Of a DNA stretch of 64,000 nt, positions 32,301 to 52,398 are shown piece by piece. Origin of the DNA: Aureimonas mangrovi (GTDB lineage Bacteria; Pseudomonadota; Alphaproteobacteria; Rhizobiales; Rhizobiaceae). Both the position numbers and the translations under genes were made by a program. Numbering within the stretch: position 1 is the first letter of the stretch; the number at the start of each line of letters is the position of its first letter. Below the pieces are notes generated by a model. That model searched no databases. It saw only the letters and a program-made list of their open reading frames with translations, and was not told the origin of the DNA. The stretch is from the NCBI RefSeq assembly GCF_014058705.1, contig NZ_CP059692.1:2299001-2363000 (forward strand). The letters run 5' to 3'.

Positions 32301-35166
32301 AACGGTCGAGATTGTCGTTGAGAGCCCGCATCTCACGCGAGCCGCCGAAGGGCAGCTCGTATCCCGCCGGGAACCCAGGCGGCGAAACGGAACGGCGGTT
32401 GTCGTTCGCCGCCGTATAGGCTGCGTCCTTACCGAACAGGAGCTCCAGCGTATTCTTCTTCCCGATCTCGGCGAACTGACGTCCGATATCGGCAAAGCCC
32501 TTCAGGACGCGGTCGAAGAAGCTGTCGGTCGAGCTCGGATCGAAGATGTCGAGAAGCGTTGAGCCGATGTTGTTCGCGAGCGCCTGGCCGACATCTTCAG
32601 CGGACTTGACGCCGCGCTTGCGGAACTCGTCCACCTTCGGCAAGGCGTCTTCGAAATTCTTCGCGATCTGTAGGCGCAGCGCGGCGCGCTGCATGTCGTC
32701 GAGGCCATTCGTCGTGTCGTTGATGGCGGCGAGAAGCCGCTCGGCATCCTGCTCTGCGGCATACCACGGGAAGAAGGTTCGGATGGCCGCATCGGCTTCG
32801 CCCGCCAGCGCCCGGTTGGCGGCCTCAAGCTCACGAGCCGCCTTCTCGGCTTCCTTCATGCCGGTGGAGGCGCGCCGCGCCGCCGCGTCCTGCTCGTCGA
32901 AACGCGCATTCACCGTCGCAAGCGTCTGGGTATGCGCGGCCTGCGCCCGCTCCAGTTCGGCCGTGTCGGCACCCGCGGCCTCGAGTTCCTTGCGGAGTTT
33001 CTCGTAGACGCCCGCCTCTCGCGCGACAGCCTGCGCGCGCGCATCCATTGCCCCGACACGCGCACCGTTTTCGTATTCGTCGAGCTGACGGCGAGCGGTG
33101 GCAAGCCCCGTGATCTCATCTCGAGCGCGCGCGCCCCACTCCTCGAGCCGCTTGAACTCCTCGCCGCGCGCATGTGGCGACATGATCATCTGGTTGATGC
33201 GGCCCTGCGCCGTCGCGATCTCCTCATTCAAGGATACGAGGTCGGCCTCTGCCTTCATCTGCTTGGCGACTTCCGGGATGCGCTGCCCGATCGCGTCCCA
33301 CGCCGACTTGTAGGCAGCAAGCGCGTCTGTGCCGCCAGCGACCGCGCTCGTCGTTCGATTGATGTGACCCGTGACGTCCATCAAAGCTGCGGATGCATTG
33401 GCGACGCTGTTTTCCGCATTCGTCACCTCAGATGCCAGAGCGGCGAAGGCATCAATACCGCCGTCGATCTGCGCGATGTACTCGGCGAAGCCGGGGTCGG
33501 TGCGGGCGAGCGTGCGCAAGCTCGTGACGAAAGCGTCGGCGCTGCCGGCGGCGCCGTCGTAACCAGCAGCGATGTCGAGCAACTGGCGAGCATGCTGATC
33601 GTCATACCCTTCGAGGAAGTCGAGGCCTGACACCGCGCGCTCGAATCGCTGCACCGCCGCGTCGAGAATGGCCGCTCGCTCGTCAACCGCCGACTGCGCG
33701 GCAGAATGATCGACCTCCAGTTCGCTGCGCGTCATCTGTCGACGCGCGGCGTCGGCTTCGGCGTAGCGGTCACGGATCTCGCCGACGATACGCTCGTGCT
33801 CCTCCATCGTCCGGTTGGCCTCTTCGCCGTTCCGCGACCACATGAGCAACCCGGTCGCGATGGCCGTGACGGTCGTGATCCCGATGCCGACCGGTCCGCC
33901 GAGGAGCGCCATCGCCGCCGATGCCGCGCCGGCTCGCGTCGTGATGGTCGCGAGCGTCGCGTTGAACGCGTTTGCGGCGACTGTGGAGGTGACGAACGAC
34001 GTGGCGAGGCGCGACCCGACCAGCGCCGTCAAGGCGCCGGCCACCGGCAGGATCGTGTCCATGTTGTCGGCGACGAAGCGCATCGTGTCGGCATAGGCCT
34101 TCGTCGATGCGATACGGGCATCGGCCGCGCCGCTCGCGCGATTGAAGGCATCGATGGCGTCTTCGGTCGCCTTCGTCGCATCGCCCTGCGCTTTCGTCAG
34201 CCCATCGTAAGCGCGCACGGCGGCACCGCCGACCTGCCCTTCGAGGTTGCGGAGAATGACATCCTGCGCACGAGCCTGATCGCCGACGGCCATGAACGCC
34301 TCGACGAGCTTCAGCTCCTGCTCTTCGAGTGCGAAGCCGCGCTGGCGAAGATTGGCGAACCCCTTGATCGGATCGTCCAAAGCTCGGGCGATGGCGTCGA
34401 GCGAGGATTGCAGCGATCCCCCGAACACTTCCGACAGGTCGTTCGCCACGACGATCGTGCGCTGGAACTCCTCGCGTCCGATGGAGGTAAAGGTGGAGAG
34501 CTGCGCGGCCACGGCCATGACTTCCTCGGCCGCACGCCCCGTGCCGGCCTCAATGCCGTCCGCAAAGGTCTGGATCTCTCGCGCCGAGAGCCCGGCCGCC
34601 TGGCCGGTCGCCTCCAGCACGCCTTGCAACCGGCGCCCGGCCCGCTCGGCTTCCTCCATACGCCGCGACGATTCCGTCAGCATCATCACGGCACCCCCGC
34701 CTCCGACGAGGCCGCCGACGCCGAGCGCCGCCGTCATCGGAGAGATCCGGGCAGCAAGCGCCGATAGACGCGAAAAAGCACCCTCCGACTGACGGGCCGA
34801 TCGCGTCAGCTGATCGTTCGCGGTCGCCGCCCCGACCGTCCGAGCGCGAAGCTGTTCCAGCACACGCGCATGCTCCTGCGCCGTGATGATCCCCTGCCGC
34901 TCGGCGCGCTCCAGGTCGCGCTGCCCGCGTTCAAGTTGGAGCTGTGCACGGTACGTCTGATCGATCCGCGAGCGCAGGCGATCGTAGGCGCCCTGCGCCG
35001 ACGTCTGCCGGCGGGACGTGGTTTCGGTAGACCGGGCGACGCCGTCGCTCGATTTTGCGAGCTTCTCGTTCGCTGCCGATTGCGCATCCAGTTCGCGACG
35101 GACCTTCTCCGCGCCTTCGGAGGTATGCCGAACGACGATCTCGCGAATTGCACGTAGTGTTGACAT
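29359..35166 (-). CDS. Tail tape measure protein with embedded peptidoglycan hydrolase-like domain
   Basis: This 1935-residue protein sets tail length. The N-terminal ~250 residues are coiled coil (RRELDAQSAANEKLAKS onwards). Hydrophobic Gly/Ala stretches follow around residues 140-160 and 375-450. Around residues 985-1095 lies a CHAP/NlpC-like module of the TIGR02594 type, with candidate catalytic Cys1000 in DTAWCAAFAN and His1052 in SGHVGFVAG. The module probably opens the cell wall during DNA entry. A Gly-rich hydrophobic segment (~1160-1215) and more coiled coil follow. The C-terminus has the GGEGILTAPAMQMPG motif common in tape measures. It begins MSTLRAIREIVVRHTSEGAEKV. Confidence 0.93.
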   Translation of the reverse strand: MSTLRAIREIVVRHTSEGAEKVRRELDAQSAANEKLAKSSDGVARSTETTSRRQTSAQGAYDRLRSRIDQTYRAQLQLERGQRDLERAERQGIITAQEHARVLEQLRARTVGAATANDQLTRSARQSEGAFSRLSALAARISPMTAALGVGGLVGGGGAVMMLTESSRRMEEAERAGRRLQGVLEATGQAAGLSAREIQTFADGIEAGTGRAAEEVMAVAAQLSTFTSIGREEFQRTIVVANDLSEVFGGSLQSSLDAIARALDDPIKGFANLRQRGFALEEQELKLVEAFMAVGDQARAQDVILRNLEGQVGGAAVRAYDGLTKAQGDATKATEDAIDAFNRASGAADARIASTKAYADTMRFVADNMDTILPVAGALTALVGSRLATSFVTSTVAANAFNATLATITTRAGAASAAMALLGGPVGIGITTVTAIATGLLMWSRNGEEANRTMEEHERIVGEIRDRYAEADAARRQMTRSELEVDHSAAQSAVDERAAILDAAVQRFERAVSGLDFLEGYDDQHARQLLDIAAGYDGAAGSADAFVTSLRTLARTDPGFAEYIAQIDGGIDAFAALASEVTNAENSVANASAALMDVTGHINRTTSAVAGGTDALAAYKSAWDAIGQRIPEVAKQMKAEADLVSLNEEIATAQGRINQMIMSPHARGEEFKRLEEWGARARDEITGLATARRQLDEYENGARVGAMDARAQAVAREAGVYEKLRKELEAAGADTAELERAQAAHTQTLATVNARFDEQDAAARRASTGMKEAEKAARELEAANRALAGEADAAIRTFFPWYAAEQDAERLLAAINDTTNGLDDMQRAALRLQIAKNFEDALPKVDEFRKRGVKSAEDVGQALANNIGSTLLDIFDPSSTDSFFDRVLKGFADIGRQFAEIGKKNTLELLFGKDAAYTAANDNRRSVSPPGFPAGYELPFGGSREMRALNDNLDRSARSALAVARQFDGLNERADSKVLDGFMQASGNWNNLSAADTAWCAAFANAAIARTGGQGTGSNLASSFMGWGSGTNAPQVGDIVVLKPQAQGTSGHVGFVAGFGDGTVQVFGGNQSHGANTKSFGLDQVRGYRTGPGLREAVRDGSLDAQRAIAQGSVPGVGPQAGATGGQTVQGGIFGPQGQAMLGVGGAAFGAFAGGMQSGSPLGGLMGGAMSGFGAAGSIATAFPALGAMATPIGLIGGAALGLLGGLFGRSKRKREERRQREEQERQQRMQAQQQLDAQMPAILELQDTLLDRASGTLEKERARISAQLKQYQQLAKTAKNKAEIQRLNEMQDALSDYMERLFDQVRLTKDAIVTSMMAGRGLEPEFAKAAAEVRESSLAIRNYIADLTAAVGEGSPDIAIAQTAGREQLLRQISGPEELTEIYKALDTMHGMAAALGDELQKLGMSAEDAARAIADHLTRGIDKLRDDFAQGIRGEIADAQGLGYLNQIRSLIERRDEMRADARSLGVDPALIERWFQVQVQNVVDGTGLVGDALDPLIDLFPQLAGVLEESMATIENALSRAESDLRSAYNKQKGELEQSVSRLESFSAALAKYRDDIRLDRNLSPLAPFAKLTEAQEKFRQTAAKAAAGDEEAQGQLIDLSRSYLDEAKSYYASSEHYFSIFDEVSGILARTEASAKEEIDAAKLQLDLLDIQVGALIDINDSVLSVADAIDAFNAAQAARDTAQAKALEDYVRALNPEAAIPSYQPPGVAVNPADGGAGDAATGPKALTWKKIGNDETGAWRSSEGQYWSPRVERASDQNGWQTTILGPRTPYEAGLNFANQLPQEGQGGRWINGKWIKDRFLGGMQTGGIVGNGEWNRDSVLARYAGGGNIALAGGEGILTAPAMQMPGVRAFMEAANARRLPDLRMPVVRATGGGGEAALVAEVRALRDEVRTLRQAVGMGAQETVAAVERGNAVAREGVSASKRRNAA

Positions 35167-47029: not shown

Positions 47030-47695
47030 CTATGCGACTTGCTCGATGGCGTCAACGGGCACGCAGACCTCGTTCATGCCGCCGAACACGGAAATCAACA
47101 GGCGAATGGCACGGCGGCTCGCAGCGTCCACCACCTGTCCGATGAAGCCGGAGAACGGCCCGACGACGATGCGCACGTCCTCGCCTGCCTTGAACGCCTC
47201 CACCCCCATCGCCTGCCTGCGCCGCACGCTCGCGAAGCGCAGGCGCTCCTCGACCTCGGCGAGGCGCAGCGCATCCACCTCGGCGAAGGGCAGCGCCTGC
47301 GGTGCGCCTTCCACGCCCAGCACCGCCTTCACGCCCTGGCACTCGCGCACCACACCCCAGTGCCGCATCGTCGGGTCGGCAGGCATGGCGAGGAAGATGT
47401 AGCCGACGAGAAGGGGGAAGGTCCGCTCGATCTCCTTCTTCGAGCGATGATGCACGATCACCTTGCGGCCCATCGGCAGCCAGGCGTCGAAGCCCTTCTC
47501 TCCGAGCGTGGCGAGGGCCCGGCCCTCGCACTGCGGGTTCGTCCGCACGGCGTACCACTCGACGCCGGCCTCGTAATCCACCACCAGAGCCCGCCGAACC
47601 GGGGCGCTCCACTGCCGTTCGCCCCGCATCCAAGCGTTTTGGGCAGCTAGGGAAGGAAGCGCCCGGCCGTTTTCGCTTGCTGCCCACTTATCCAT
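47030..47695 (-). CDS. NusG/RfaH-family transcription antitermination protein (phage-encoded)
   Basis: This 221-residue protein has an NGN domain (VEWYAVRTNPQCEGRALATLGEKGFDAWLPMG, then LLVGYIFLAM), residues ~46-110. A C-terminal KOW motif follows (AGEDVRIVVGPFSGFIGQVVD, ~residue 175). NusG paralogs bind RNA polymerase and suppress pausing and termination, or couple transcription to translation. The start is ATG 47695, with AGAGGG eight bases upstream. It is the first gene of the leftward late transcript, immediately ahead of several terminators, so it probably acts as the phage's late antiterminator (inference). Its first codons lie within an inverted repeat block. Confidence 0.9.
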   Translation of the reverse strand: MDKWAASENGRALPSLAAQNAWMRGERQWSAPVRRALVVDYEAGVEWYAVRTNPQCEGRALATLGEKGFDAWLPMGRKVIVHHRSKKEIERTFPLLVGYIFLAMPADPTMRHWGVVRECQGVKAVLGVEGAPQALPFAEVDALRLAEVEERLRFASVRRRQAMGVEAFKAGEDVRIVVGPFSGFIGQVVDAASRRAIRLLISVFGGMNEVCVPVDAIEQVA

Positions 47696-47956
47696 TTTCA
47701 TAACCCTCTGTATATCAATGCTTATTTTCGAAGTTGGGCAGCTAGGGAGGCTAGGGAGGCAAGCTTTCACCCTACGTATGAGAGAGGTCCCCTTCTCTCT
47801 CGTCGTTCTTCATGGGTCGCGCGCGCATATGCGGAAGGCGCGGGCTTGCCTCCCTAGCCTCCCTAGCTGCCCAAACCCCTGCGCCGCCGGCCTCCCACAC
47901 CCTCGCGGTTTGGGCAGCAAGCGGTTTCGCCAGCGCGCTTGCGTCCCTAGCTGCCC
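47641..47956. repeat. Nested inverted-repeat cluster (six GGGCAGC...AAGC motifs)
   Basis: Six copies of a motif GGGCAGC-(TAGGGAxGx)n-AAGC alternate in orientation. They are 47641-47660 (n=1, +), 47674-47685 (n=0, -), 47736-47764 (n=2, +), 47844-47872 (n=2, -), 47912-47923 (n=0, +) and 47936-47956 (n=1, -). The n=2 pair is part of a perfect 31-bp inverted repeat, 47734-47764 and 47844-47874. The outer 45-bp blocks 47641-47685 and 47912-47956 are inverted copies of each other, so the whole is symmetrical about ~47800. The non-coding stretch 47696-48033 holds no gene. It lies between the NusG-like gene and the replicative helicase; an origin, operator array or leader RNA are candidate roles. Confidence 0.85.
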
Positions 47957-48033
47957 ATTTCCGGGCGCCGGGCGCGCCTGCCCTGTCGTCGGCTTGGCCG
48001 GTCGCAGAGGTGCGGAGAGGCGGCGCGTGGGCA

Positions 48034-49809
48034 TCATTCGTCTCTCGGCGCGAACTCGCGGTCGGGCGGCGTGGGCCCGCTACCGGGCGCGCCACCACGG
48101 AAGGCGTCCTTGATGCGGATGCCGGCATAGACGGTGCCGCCGCTCTTCATGCGCACGAACTGGCGCATGCGCCCGTCCGGCCCCTTCCATGCCTGCTTCG
48201 CCTTGTCGGGCAGCCGGCGGTTGAAGGTGGCGGCGGCGAAGGGCGTCAGGCCCTCGCGCTGGGAGAAGCGGATATAGGCCTCGTGCAGCTCGCCGGGCGA
48301 GACGCGGTCGCTCGGGTCGCCCGTCACATCGCAGCCGCCACGGATGAACGCGCCGACAGGGTCCGAATCCTCGCGGTGCTCCTGCACGGCCGCGAGCAGC
48401 TCCTCGGGCGGCGCCAGCCCGCCGATCGTCAGATATTCCAGCGTCCCGGCCAGCATCCAGGCGAGGATGCCGTCGCGCTCGGCGAGCAGCTTGTCGGGCA
48501 GGTGCCGGTCGCGCTCGGCGGCGGGGATCTGCACCGGCCATTCGAAGAGGTGGACGCGCCGCCAGATGCCGTCGTCGTCGCCGCGGATGATCGGCTTGTG
48601 GTTGCCGGTGATGACGAACTTCGCCTTGATGGTGATCTCGACGAAGTCCTGATGCAGCTTGCGCACGGCGATCTTGTCGTCGCCGGTCAGGAGCTTGATC
48701 AGCCCTTCCTTCAGGCGCGCCGTCTCGTCGCCTTCGGAGGCGAAGCACGCATAGGCGCCGTTGAGGCGGGCGAGGTCGGGCGTCGCGTCCGCGCCGCCGC
48801 GCCGCACGTCGCCGGTGAAGCTCTCGATGCCCAGCGTCACCGCATAGTCCGAGAGGATTTTGCCGAGGACGTCGGTGAAGGTGGATTTGCCGTTGGCGCC
48901 GATGCCGTAGAAGAAGGCGATGATCTGCTCGCCCGTCAGCCCGGTCAGCATGTAGCCGGCGAGGCGTCGCAGATAGGCCCGCATGCGGATGTCGGGCTGC
49001 ACGCGGTGCAGGAACTCGATGAAGGTCGGCGCCAGCCGGTGCGCCATCGCGTCGAGCGCGTCCTCGGTGAACAGCGCCTCCCCCGGTTCGGCCGGGTTGA
49101 TGCCCGATGGTCCGGAAGACGGGTCGCACAGGCTCGCCTCGGCCAGCTTGGTGATGAAGTCCTCGCGCCGGTGCGCGTCCAGGCGCGCCCGCCAGAGAAA
49201 GCGTGGCTCCTCCGGGTCGCTCTCCTCGTCCTCGATGCGCACGAAGCGAATCGTTCCGTTGCGGCAGTTCAGCGCCATCGGGTCGGTGTTCATCGCGTCG
49301 ACGGTGCGGGCGAGGTAGGGCTGCGCCTCCTTCAGCATGTTGTCGAGCTTGGCCGAGTTGCAGGAGGATTTGCCGTGCGCCCGGCGCGTCTGCCGGCGTT
49401 TCTCCAGCTTCTCCTTCAGCCGCTCGGCCTCCTTCACAGCCGCTTCCAGCTTCTCCCACGGCCGCCGCGCGCCACCTTCCGCGTCGGCCTTCGGCCGCTC
49501 GCGCCCGGCCATCTCCTTCGCGGCATCGTCGCCCGCTTCGATCAGGAGGATCTCGCCCTCCTCGAGCATGATCTCGGTGCATTCGAAGCGGATTTCCTCG
49601 GCCGTCTTGTGCGCCAGCGGGCGCACGACGCTGCCGTCCTCATCCTCGCGCCAGCGCAGGCCGTCGAAGCCGTGCCAGCCGATCTTGGCGATGGCGAGCA
49701 GGTCGGAGCCGTGGCGGTGGCGCAGGCGGCGGCCGTTGCCGATATCGGTTTCAGCCTCGGCCGCGCAGAGCGCGATCAGCGAGACGCTGGCTTTCGGGTC
49801 GTCTGTCAT
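48034..49809 (-). CDS. P4/D5-type phage replicative helicase-primase
   Basis: This 591-residue protein starts MTDDPKASVSLIALCAAEAETDIGNGRRLRHRHG. The middle carries the D5_N-type region (NTDPMALNCRNGTIRF). The SF3/D5 helicase ATPase follows, with Walker A FYGIGANGKSTF and sensor KFVITGNHKPIIRGDDDGIWRRVHLFEWPV. The end has a C-terminal winged-helix-like region. It unwinds phage DNA and is found next to a separate CHC2/Toprim primase gene here. The start at 49809 is 22 bases from the left arm of the HicAB operator, so its expression may also respond to HicB. Confidence 0.92.
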   Translation of the reverse strand: MTDDPKASVSLIALCAAEAETDIGNGRRLRHRHGSDLLAIAKIGWHGFDGLRWREDEDGSVVRPLAHKTAEEIRFECTEIMLEEGEILLIEAGDDAAKEMAGRERPKADAEGGARRPWEKLEAAVKEAERLKEKLEKRRQTRRAHGKSSCNSAKLDNMLKEAQPYLARTVDAMNTDPMALNCRNGTIRFVRIEDEESDPEEPRFLWRARLDAHRREDFITKLAEASLCDPSSGPSGINPAEPGEALFTEDALDAMAHRLAPTFIEFLHRVQPDIRMRAYLRRLAGYMLTGLTGEQIIAFFYGIGANGKSTFTDVLGKILSDYAVTLGIESFTGDVRRGGADATPDLARLNGAYACFASEGDETARLKEGLIKLLTGDDKIAVRKLHQDFVEITIKAKFVITGNHKPIIRGDDDGIWRRVHLFEWPVQIPAAERDRHLPDKLLAERDGILAWMLAGTLEYLTIGGLAPPEELLAAVQEHREDSDPVGAFIRGGCDVTGDPSDRVSPGELHEAYIRFSQREGLTPFAAATFNRRLPDKAKQAWKGPDGRMRQFVRMKSGGTVYAGIRIKDAFRGGAPGSGPTPPDREFAPRDE

Positions 49810-49830
49810 TGCGGAGCGGCCTTGCAAAAC

Positions 49831-49907: not shown

Positions 49908-50111
49908 ATGAGCCCGAAGCGACAGGTTGAACGCCCCAAGGACATCATCAAGCGATTGCTCGGCGATGGCTGGACGGAGCGGAAGGGAAAGGGGGACCAC
50001 CGCAATTTCACCAAGCCCGGTCACGGGGTGGTCACGGTGGACACGGGAGTGAAGGAGATACCGATCGGCACCCTTCGCAACATCTACAGAACGGCGGGCT
50101 GGGGCTGGTAG
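49908..50111 (+). CDS. hicA: HicA-type mRNA interferase toxin
   Basis: This 67-residue protein has a dsRBD-like fold. The sequence KDIIKRLLGDGWTERKGKGDHRNFTKPGHGVVTVD contains the catalytic histidine of HicA in GDHRNF. It ends EIPIGTLRNIYRTAGW, the conserved HicA C-terminus. HicA cleaves mRNA when freed from HicB. The start ATG follows AGGGAAGGAC. It lies on the plus strand against the surrounding leftward genes. Confidence 0.93.
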   Translation: MSPKRQVERPKDIIKRLLGDGWTERKGKGDHRNFTKPGHGVVTVDTGVKEIPIGTLRNIYRTAGWGW

Positions 50112-50150
50112 CCCCGGCCCCTTCGCCTCACACGAAGACAGGAACGAGAC

Positions 50151-50558
50151 ATGACCAACGTCGTCGCATTGATCCACGGAGAGGCCGGCACCTACGGCAT
50201 CTCCTTCCCAGACTTCCCCGGCGCGGCGTCCGGCGGCGCCACCGTTGACGAGGCGCTGGCGCGCGGCCGCGCGTTGCTCGCCACCCATATCGAGGCACTG
50301 ACGGAAGAGAAGGTCGCCCTTCCCGCCCTGCGCACGCTGGAGGAGGTCCGCGCCGATCCCGCGCTCGCGGAGGACTTCGCCGATGCCGTCGCCGTCACCC
50401 TGGTGCCGGCGGACCTGCCCGGCCGCGCACGGCAGTTCACGATCTCGATGGACGAGAACCTGATGGCTCGCATCGACGTGCAGGCCAAGGCCCTCGGCGA
50501 GAACCGCTCGCGCTATCTCGCCAACGCCGCGCGCAATCGCCTGCGGGAGGATGCCTGA
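50151..50558 (+). CDS. hicB: HicB-type antitoxin
   Basis: This 135-residue antitoxin has the HicB partial RNase H fold (IHGEAGTYGISFPDFPGAASGGATVDEALARGRALLATHIEAL). A C-terminal ribbon-helix-helix-like DNA-binding region follows (FTISMDENLMARIDVQAKALGENRSRYLANAARNRL). It neutralises HicA and should bind the TACGTA arms upstream. It follows hicA by 39 bases with a GACAGGAACGAG leader. Its stop is only 9 bases from the stop of the convergent methyltransferase gene. Confidence 0.93.
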   Translation: MTNVVALIHGEAGTYGISFPDFPGAASGGATVDEALARGRALLATHIEALTEEKVALPALRTLEEVRADPALAEDFADAVAVTLVPADLPGRARQFTISMDENLMARIDVQAKALGENRSRYLANAARNRLREDA

Positions 50559-50566
50559 CGAGGCGG

Positions 50567-51154
50567 TCATTCGGCCGCCCCGAACTTGTCGGCCTCGTTG
50601 CCGAACGCGTCCCAGCCGGCGCGGCGCTGGCGCGAGAAGATGTCCGCGCGGCGCCCGGTCGGGACGAGGGTTTCGACGAGCTGGTAGAATTCTTCCGGCT
50701 TGCGGGAATGCTCGCGGGCAAGGCCGTCGAGCGCGGCGTCGGTCAGCGTCTCGACGAGGTTCGGCACCTTGCCGCGCGCGATGGCCGCGCCCTCGAGGCG
50801 GCCGATCAGGAACGGTTCGCAGACGGAGCGCAGCACGTAGCCCGTGCCCCAGCGCAACTTGCCGCCGCTGGTGCGCTTCGCCCACACGCCGCCCGTCACG
50901 GTCGGCAGGCCCCAGCCGCGCATGATCGCCGCCTGTTGCTCGATCAGCGGCCAGGTCGCCCACATCACGAGGACGCCGCCGGGCGCGAGGAGATCGCCGA
51001 CGCGCATGGCCGCGATGTCGGCCATCGACATCGTCGTGTATTGCGCTTCGGGGCTCTTCTCGAGGCCCTTGTCGGAATAGGCCCGCCACGGCCACGGCGG
51101 ATCGATGACGACGACATCGTAGGAGAACAACGGCAGGCCGAGGTCGGCACTCAC
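50567..51154 (-). CDS. MT-A70-family adenine-N6 DNA methyltransferase
   Basis: This 195-residue protein has the catalytic DPPW motif in VVVIDPPWPWRAYS and the SAM region around LLAPGGVLVMWATWP. The C-terminal KPEEFYQLVETLVP segment is common in phage MT-A70 proteins. It methylates adenine in DNA, probably protecting phage DNA from host restriction or altering methylation-dependent transcription. It is the last gene of the leftward early operon and starts at GTG 51154, overlapping the primase stop. Confidence 0.9.
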   Translation of the reverse strand: MSADLGLPLFSYDVVVIDPPWPWRAYSDKGLEKSPEAQYTTMSMADIAAMRVGDLLAPGGVLVMWATWPLIEQQAAIMRGWGLPTVTGGVWAKRTSGGKLRWGTGYVLRSVCEPFLIGRLEGAAIARGKVPNLVETLTDAALDGLAREHSRKPEEFYQLVETLVPTGRRADIFSRQRRAGWDAFGNEADKFGAAE

Positions 51155-52398
51155 GCCGCCACCCCTTGCGCCATCTCGGCGAAGTCCATGCCTGCCGGTG
51201 CCATCTCCACGCGCACCGTGCGGCCGTCGCGCGCATGGCGTCGCGCGCCGCGCTTCATCGCCGCCCGCGTCATCACCGCGTCGCTGTCGCCGTCGCCGAG
51301 GAGGACGAGCTCGTCGACATGGTCGGGCACCGGCATCGCCACGCTGTCGAGATCTGGCGCCTCGCCAGGCACGAACACGGGCAAGCGCCGCCCGCCCTTA
51401 CCGATATTCACCTTCTGCGGGTGGCGGATGCGGCTGTCCTTCGTCGCCTTGCCGCACAAATTCCCGAGGTCGCCGGCAGCGCAGTAGAACGTGCCCTCCG
51501 GAAAGCCTTCGCGCTGGCCGAAGCCGAGAACGGTCTCGATCCCCTCGCCGGCCACCATGCGGCGCGCCGAGGAGAGACGGCCGACGAGCGGGATCAGCCC
51601 GCCGGCCTTGGAGCCGCGCATCTTCTTCGAGGGCAGCGTCTCGCCCGCGTTCTGCGGGTCGGTGATCGTCGGCCGCCCCTTGCCGGGCACGTCTAGGTCG
51701 ATCCACGTCTGATGAATGCCGATGATCTTAGCGCTGCCGCCGTCGGGCCGCACGAACAGCGCCAGCATGGCGGGGCCGCGGTGCAGCTGCGCGTTGCGCC
51801 CGCCCGCATCCCGGCCCCAGAACGGCAGATCGGCCGCGCAGCGCAGGAAGGCCGGGTCGATCCGCGAAGGGTCGAGCCCGCGCAGCGCGAGATACCGCTC
51901 GGCCTGGCTGCCGGGGAACGGCCGCCCCTCGGCCCAGATGTCGAGGCAGCGCTCCAGCTCGCGGCGGCGATAATGCGCGCTCTCGTCGGCCTGCCGGGCG
52001 GCGCGCTCTTCGCTCTCGGCGCGGGCGGCGGCGTTGCGGGCCTCGGCCTCGCGTCGGCGCGCGGCACTGTCGCGAAGCTCCTCGGCGCTCTTCGCAGGCC
52101 CCGGCCGGTCGCGGCCGAGCAGCGTCTCGCAGGCGTCGAGGAAGCTCTCGCCCGTCAGATACTCGACGAGCGCGATGCCGTCGCCGCCCGCCCCGCCCTG
52201 CCGGCAGAGGAAGACGTTCTTCGAGGGGTTGAGCTGGAACCGATCCTTGCCGCCGCAGCGCGGGCACGGGCCGACATACTCATGGCTGGCGCGGCGCAGC
52301 GTCGAGAGCGAGAAGCCGCAGCGCTCGAAGGCCGCCTCGATCGAGATCGCGCGCGCCTCCTCGACGAAGGCGTCCATTTCCGGCGATCGGGCGGTCAT
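51151..52398 (-). CDS. Phage DNA primase with CHC2 zinc finger and Toprim domain
   Basis: This 415-residue protein has an N-terminal CHC2-type zinc ribbon (GPCPRCGGKDRFQLNPSKNVFLC), then GGDGIALVEYLTG. A helical Arg/Glu/Ala-rich linker (residues ~105-145) follows. The Toprim core has acidic residues in VAGEGIETVLG and LVLLGDGDSDAVM. It synthesises RNA primers for phage replication together with the D5-type helicase at 48034-49809. It overlaps the CtrA-like gene by four bases. Confidence 0.9.
   Translation of the reverse strand: MTARSPEMDAFVEEARAISIEAAFERCGFSLSTLRRASHEYVGPCPRCGGKDRFQLNPSKNVFLCRQGGAGGDGIALVEYLTGESFLDACETLLGRDRPGPAKSAEELRDSAARRREAEARNAAARAESEERAARQADESAHYRRRELERCLDIWAEGRPFPGSQAERYLALRGLDPSRIDPAFLRCAADLPFWGRDAGGRNAQLHRGPAMLALFVRPDGGSAKIIGIHQTWIDLDVPGKGRPTITDPQNAGETLPSKKMRGSKAGGLIPLVGRLSSARRMVAGEGIETVLGFGQREGFPEGTFYCAAGDLGNLCGKATKDSRIRHPQKVNIGKGGRRLPVFVPGEAPDLDSVAMPVPDHVDELVLLGDGDSDAVMTRAAMKRGARRHARDGRTVRVEMAPAGMDFAEMAQGVAA

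Follow-up and report, generated by a model that had tools for sequence, protein, structure and literature searches.

Origins beside initiator helicases and a probable one in a prophage

PICI origins are located immediately 3' of rep, where two iteron sets flank an AT-rich region, and their function has been established by a plasmid test (excerpt of PMC6092414). In the case of the SCCmec protein Cch2, a helicase of the D5_N group, the isolated C-terminal domain has been reported to bind direct repeats downstream of its own gene, and SaPI Rep is described as acting like Cch2 (excerpt of PMC7581432). In phage P4, according to its database record, crr lies just 3' of alpha and contains type 1 repeats that are 9 bp apart and occur in both orientations. 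Origin work on the Streptococcus thermophilus phage DT1 is cited in the excerpted part of PMC3952083, and hence phage origins are not new as such.

The window analysed here, 64,000 nucleotides of Aureimonas mangrovi (contig NZ_CP059692.1, positions 2,299,001 to 2,363,000), contains a temperate prophage in which an inverted-repeat element follows the gene for a D5-type helicase. We think it likely that this element is the replication origin of the prophage and that it works like the SaPI/PICI and P4 origins. What was observed is the anatomy of the element, its recurrence after related helicase genes, its independence of the adjacent NusG-like gene and, in the helicase C-terminus, a predicted fold of a DNA-binding type; we infer that the helicase binds, is loaded, melts the DNA and initiates replication at the element. 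A sequence-only reading of the same DNA had named a replication origin among several candidate roles, and this candidate is now supported by the position, the iterons, the AT-rich stretch and the recurrence beside related helicases. Among the titles and abstract openings listed for open-licence PMC papers, none describes such an array in alphaproteobacterial phages. The main text of PMC5492332, which cites the genome paper of Aurantimonas phage AmM-1 (Yoshida et al. 2015), contains neither 'iteron' nor 'origin of replication', and in the AmM-1 record genes are the sole features listed for the region after gp64.

Anatomy of the element

The element and its neighbouring genes are arranged as follows (positions in the window).

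47640..47957, no strand: whole element, proposed replication origin; inverted-repeat layout, unique in the genome, position and layout recurring in relatives
47640..47686, no strand: left outer block, iterons in both orientations; inside the first codons of the NusG-like gene
47688..47732: AT-rich stretch, candidate unwinding region; 71% AT, flanked by a central arm and the left block
47734..47764, plus strand: central arm with iterons TTGGGCAGC, TAGGGAGGC, TAGGGAGGC, then AAGC; perfect inverted copy of 47844-47874
47765..47843, no strand: 79-nt core between the central arms; contains CATACGTA and the alternating purine-pyrimidine tract CGCATATGCGCGCGCG
47844..47874, minus strand: central arm, the same three iterons opposed; inverted copy of 47734-47764
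47911..47957, no strand: right outer block, by sequence comparison an inverted copy of the left block
47030..47695, minus strand: NusG-like gene, a neighbour on the downstream side that varies among relatives; start codon at 47701 or 47695, Pfam NusG 1e-15, phrog_6386 transcription antiterminator
48034..49827, minus strand: D5_N/DUF5906 helicase gene, proposed initiator; Pfam D5_N 2.4e-15, DUF5906 9.7e-12, C-terminal winged-helix-like model
51151..52398, minus strand: primase-type gene, separate but in the same module; DUF7146 and CHC2 zinc finger

On the minus strand the order is primase-type gene, MT-A70 methylase, D5_N/DUF5906 helicase, element, NusG-like gene, HNH, and small and large terminase; terminase, portal, protease and capsid-type genes are found downstream of the element. 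The element is immediately 3' of the helicase gene, with 76 nt between the helicase stop at 48034 and the right block. A HicA/HicB toxin-antitoxin pair (49908-50558, plus) is encoded on the opposite strand between the methylase and the helicase, and its position is occupied in AmM-1 by a gene with a DnaA C-terminal domain.

The motif GGGCAGC[T/A]AG is present in the element at 47641(+), 47685(-), 47736(+), 47872(-), 47912(+) and 47956(-), with a separate copy at 34749. These seven copies compare with 1.06 expected in the 64-kb window, and seven were reached in 0/100 dinucleotide shuffles. When a second iteron region was sought, clusters of GGGCAGC[T/A]AG were found in the window only at the element, and CTAGGGAGG with one mismatch gave scattered single matches elsewhere in the window. 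The six GGGCAGC motifs in alternating orientation and the perfect 31-bp inverted repeat with a 79-base spacer, both described in the sequence-only reading, are present as stated (arms 47734-47764 and 47844-47874). The same holds for its inverted outer 45-bp blocks, for which it gave at least 31 identical positions: 47641-47685 and 47912-47956 match at 36/45 positions, or at 38/47 (81%) if one extra base per side is included. It had further treated the motifs as constant hairpins carrying a variable 9-base insert. This can be refined: the 'constant' GGGCAGC is a form of the variable unit, (T/A)(T/A)GGGNNGC, so the element is better described as 9-bp iterons arrayed in either orientation. TTGGGCAGC, ATGGGCAGC, TAGGGAGGC and TAGGGACGC are forms of this one iteron.

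In the whole 3,485,124-base genome, GGGCAGCTAGGGA has four sites, all within the element. Among 151 genomes drawn from the family it is found in three, the window's own included, and the other two have a single copy each. The stretch 47688-47732 has the highest AT content of all 45-mers starting in 30000-60000, and the purine-pyrimidine tract in the core spans 16 nt (47818-47833). The left block overlaps the opening codons of the minus-strand NusG-like gene (ATG candidates at 47701 and 47695), as had been noted before. At 47640-47701 (minus), and likewise in L011, L070 and L072, the reading frame of the next protein runs through the 9-bp iterons, which there encode N-terminal residues (SLAAQ, ASLASL); such in-frame iteron codons occur whether that protein is NusG-like or of the gp65 type.

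Comparison with described origins

The SaPI/PICI plan, in which the initiator-helicase gene is directly followed on its 3' side by an origin with iteron sets around an AT-rich region (excerpt of PMC6092414), has a likeness in the window, where a central arm and the left block stand on either side of the 71% AT stretch. In contrast to these helper-dependent islands, the window holds a temperate phage of full size that carries terminase genes itself. Its opposed 9-bp iterons surround a purine-pyrimidine core. The likeness to P4 lies in the position and the 9-bp spacing of the crr repeats and in a match between alpha and the window helicase over 119 residues (BLASTP E 1e-6, single comparison). 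However, the type 1 iteron of P4 is GGTGAACA-like and the iterons of the element are TTGGGCAGC/TAGGGAGGC; P4 also has separate crr and ori repeat regions, combines primase and helicase in one protein and lacks a long purine-pyrimidine tract in crr. Cch2 is similar as a D5_N-group helicase with repeats downstream of its gene, but its iterons are three in number and 5 nt long, it is not a phage protein, and replication is not demonstrated in the excerpt of PMC7581432. We have not filed the element as a P4 or PICI member, since defining features of these groups were looked for and not found. The dyad symmetry, the 9-bp unit and the purine-pyrimidine core set the element apart as a variant of SaPI/PICI- and P4-like origins.

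Another counterpart is in AmM-1, where a homologous element with TAGGGAGGC iterons follows gp64, the gene for a helicase that is 58% identical. Here, in contrast to the window, the next gene is gp65 (phrog_9306) and not NusG-like, and the helicase gene comes after one with a DnaA_C domain.

Recurrence after related helicase genes

A first set of relatives was obtained by scanning viral contigs with a 14-bp pattern (64 stretches) and by DNA comparison with phages. This located the element in L070, L011 and AmM-1; L078 belongs to Aurantimonas sp. 22II-16-19i, the L011 sequence is the same in L079 (Aureimonas sp. Leaf324), and the other pattern matches in viral contigs were mostly single copies. 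Helicase alignment then gave 79 genome loci (from the best 80 of 90) and 80 viral loci (the best 80 of 89), with L075 and L076 added to the set and L131 (partial match) and L140 (too short) omitted. Loci with identical first 150 nt past the helicase stop were merged into 131 downstream regions, among which near-duplicates persist, so that 131 is not a number of independent events. One locus among the alphaproteobacterial matches, L092, with a helicase 48% identical to the query, is on a contig labelled Bacillus subtilis SK6B4, a label that is perhaps due to contamination.

Among periods of 6-15, the best was 9 in 92/131 regions, compared with 344/1577 other tiles of the same loci and 41/393 mononucleotide shuffles. 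With at least 18/27 matches required, period 9 was found in 71/131 regions, 67/1577 tiles and 2/393 shuffles. A 7-mer with at least six copies was present in 50/131 regions, 30/1577 tiles and 2/655 dinucleotide shuffles, and the commonest 7-mers vary by locus (AGGGACG in 26, AGGGAGG in 12, ACGGACA in 4, and others). A looser test, requiring one adjacent pair of 9-mers, was positive within 800 nt in 102 of the 131 loci; another 23 had such a pair at greater distance alone, and in six none was found; the last 800 nt of the helicase gene gave 14/131 and tiles more than 1500 nt downstream gave 115/349, a high background that makes this test weak alone.

Periodic opposed 27-nt arms with a spacer of 60-124 nt were found in 55 distinct loci, chosen by score, spacer and periodicity. 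In-register arm identity in these loci is 0.865, compared with 0.76 when shifted, a value biased upward because of that selection. An alternating purine-pyrimidine run of at least 12 is present in 40/55 cores, 12/1122 coding tiles and 17/1100 shuffles, and the 45 nt that flank the 3' arm on its outer side have a mean AT content of 57-71%, as against 38% for the loci. Absence of the repeats from related prophages, which the sequence-only reading would have taken as a sign of chance insertion, is not what was seen: position and layout recur after related helicase genes and, as judged from sequence comparison, the layout recurs in many temperate phages.

The array and its neighbouring genes

Within 3.5 kb downstream, a gp65-type gene (phrog_9306) is present in 92 of the 131 regions, a NusG-like gene in five and neither in 34. 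The TAGGGAGGC iterons are retained in AmM-1 despite a next gene unrelated to NusG. Pairs whose helicase C-termini share 55% identity or more have an arm identity of 0.828 if their next genes are related (555 pairs), and unrelated next genes give 0.842 (11 pairs). Over 1275 pairs, arm identity correlates with the helicase C-terminus at 0.54, the AAA+ part at 0.51, the primase at 0.46 and the helicase N-terminus at 0.43. Its correlation with the next gene is 0.295; for this value and for the 555 and 11 pairs, the next gene is a crude pick of a long open frame. These values favour the view that the arms go with the replication genes rather than with the next gene; they do not single out the helicase from the primase, the differences being too small to decide.

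The helicase as candidate initiator

The C-terminal 160 residues of the helicase were modelled from 40 sequences (mean pLDDT 86.0, pTM 0.64). Among PDB folds, 1dp7, the winged helix of RFX, comes nearest (E 4e-3). African swine fever virus PrimPol chains come next, and further down the list, at rank 26, stands 1ka8, the origin-binding domain of P4 (E 0.31, target TM 0.54). No match at E 0.001 was returned by this PDB structure search, and a profile comparison between the helicase C-terminus and the P4 alpha C-terminus was negative. From the model, the C-terminus is predicted to adopt a winged-helix-like fold of a DNA-binding type. With a profile of the whole helicase, the best match is ASFV C962R (1.7e-9), and 7ola, which we take to be SaPI5 Rep, is also matched (3.4e-6).

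We propose that the D5-type helicase, encoded just upstream, would bind the iterons via its C-terminal winged-helix-like domain and that the opposed iteron sets would assemble two helicase complexes face to face. The AT-rich stretch would subsequently open, perhaps aided by the purine-pyrimidine core, and the phage primase together with the host polymerase would begin replication.

Alternative functions

The repeats could instead be terminase-binding sites, forming a pac or cos-associated packaging site where the replication genes give way to the packaging genes. HNH and the small and large terminase genes do come after the NusG-like gene, and the RcapNL iteron copies stop about 25 nt short of the cohesive overhang annotated there. 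However, the AmM-1 array is about 3 kb from the end of the database record, and the layout resembles helicase-linked origins and was found via helicase relatedness. We regard packaging as unlikely.

Even less probable, in our view, is an operator or enhancer array on which a phage regulator would control a late operon starting here. The location between early (replication) and late (packaging) genes, overlapping the start of the next gene, would suit such a role, but a search of 47500-48200 limited to sigma-70-type patterns gave no promoter match and the array stays while the next gene differs between relatives.

A structured leader RNA, which the sequence-only reading had considered for the control of late transcription, or an antitermination site, either working together with the NusG-like protein, fares worse and appears very improbable. 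The minus-strand RNA of the element does fold strongly (z -10.6), as expected of such repeats; the pairing, however, is poorly kept between disjoint close relatives. In the window versus L078, 3/3 changes in one arm have a counterpart in the opposite arm, and across all 242 overlapping pairs 253 changes coincide where 85 are expected, but in the 19 disjoint close pairs, with 33 and 38 arm changes, six coincide compared with 3.2 expected. Some coupling between the arms thus exists, and copying between the inverted arms could be its cause; close relatives do not show a strictly kept stem. An Rfam scan of 47400-48300 found no family at gathering score, its three matches being microRNA families far below it. 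A NusG-specific leader as the general function is ruled out, since a NusG-like gene comes next in only 5/131 regions.

A MITE-like insertion without phage function, suggested by the appearance of terminal inverted repeats, deserves next to no credence, as there is one locus in the genome and relatives keep its place and layout with diverged letters.

GC skew, another check put forward for initiation, did not bear it out: there is no lasting switch at the element, and a one-window change occurs at 47-49 kb.

Breadth among phages and plasmids

If the element is an origin as proposed, 9-bp iteron arrays soon after a D5-type helicase gene would predict lytic origins in many temperate phages. Full-size phages would then appear to share the satellite-type origin plan, which bears on the source of satellite replicons, and lineages with diverged iterons would provide initiator-origin pairs for studying DNA recognition and loading by the helicase.

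In 14/19 named phage or plasmid records, a repeated 7-mer exceeded all 50 shuffles. The positive records are roseobacter phage-plasmids, rhizobial and Methylobacterium plasmids, and rhizobial, Paracoccus and Rhodobacter phages, together with two cyanophages, Listeria phage PSA, a Staphylococcus phage, AcaML1 and a Methanoculleus virus. In the other five (two small plasmids, two actinophages and RcRhea) no repeated 7-mer rose above the shuffles. The best period is 9 in nine of the 14 positive records and 10 to 14 in the other five, which shows that a 9-bp unit is not found throughout. The repeated-7-mer test is also positive for P4 crr, with period 9. For L242 and L249 the regions were taken past intervening genes: Rhizobium phage RR1-A (L242:5656-7882) and a plasmid of Mesorhizobium (L249:4260-5381) have genes of the Ant or BRO-N type between helicase and array, which indicates that the array may also stand apart from the helicase gene.

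A purine-pyrimidine tract rare by chance (0-2/200 shuffles) is present in 4/15 named records, namely pP88_h, RcapNL, AcaML1 and Sc-Yong805-1. Tracts as long arose in 16/200 shuffles for RR1-A, in at least 45/200 for the other ten records and in 191/200 for P4 crr; P4 crr and the two Firmicute phages examined lack the tract. More tentatively, D5-type-helicase phages of proteobacteria and cyanobacteria may possess one origin design, in which 9-bp iterons in opposed sets, changing in sequence from lineage to lineage but constant in length and symmetry, would surround a Z-DNA-prone alternating purine-pyrimidine core that takes part in melting, with two helicase rings loading head to head. This generalization is a possibility about which we are rather doubtful. 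Of this opposed-iteron design, the element in the window would be a nearly palindromic case.

The phage-plasmids were considered as proof of origin function and are not decisive, as plasmid-type partition and putative replication genes are also aboard: pP88_h carries repA, repB and a helix-turn-helix gene, and p5 carries AAA ATPase, ParB-like and helix-turn-helix genes.

A compact version of the array is found in the Acidithiobacillus phage AcaML1 (L253:2568-2690), where opposed 9-bp repeats around a 20-nt purine-pyrimidine tract span about 120 nt after the primase gene. The Phaeobacter phage-plasmid pP88_h is annotated with an autoinducer-binding regulator and an acyl-homoserine-lactone synthase (L250:35384-36617), and a 46-kb Methylobacterium currus plasmid with a P4-family primase encodes type I-E cas1 and cas2 (L239:8928-9506).
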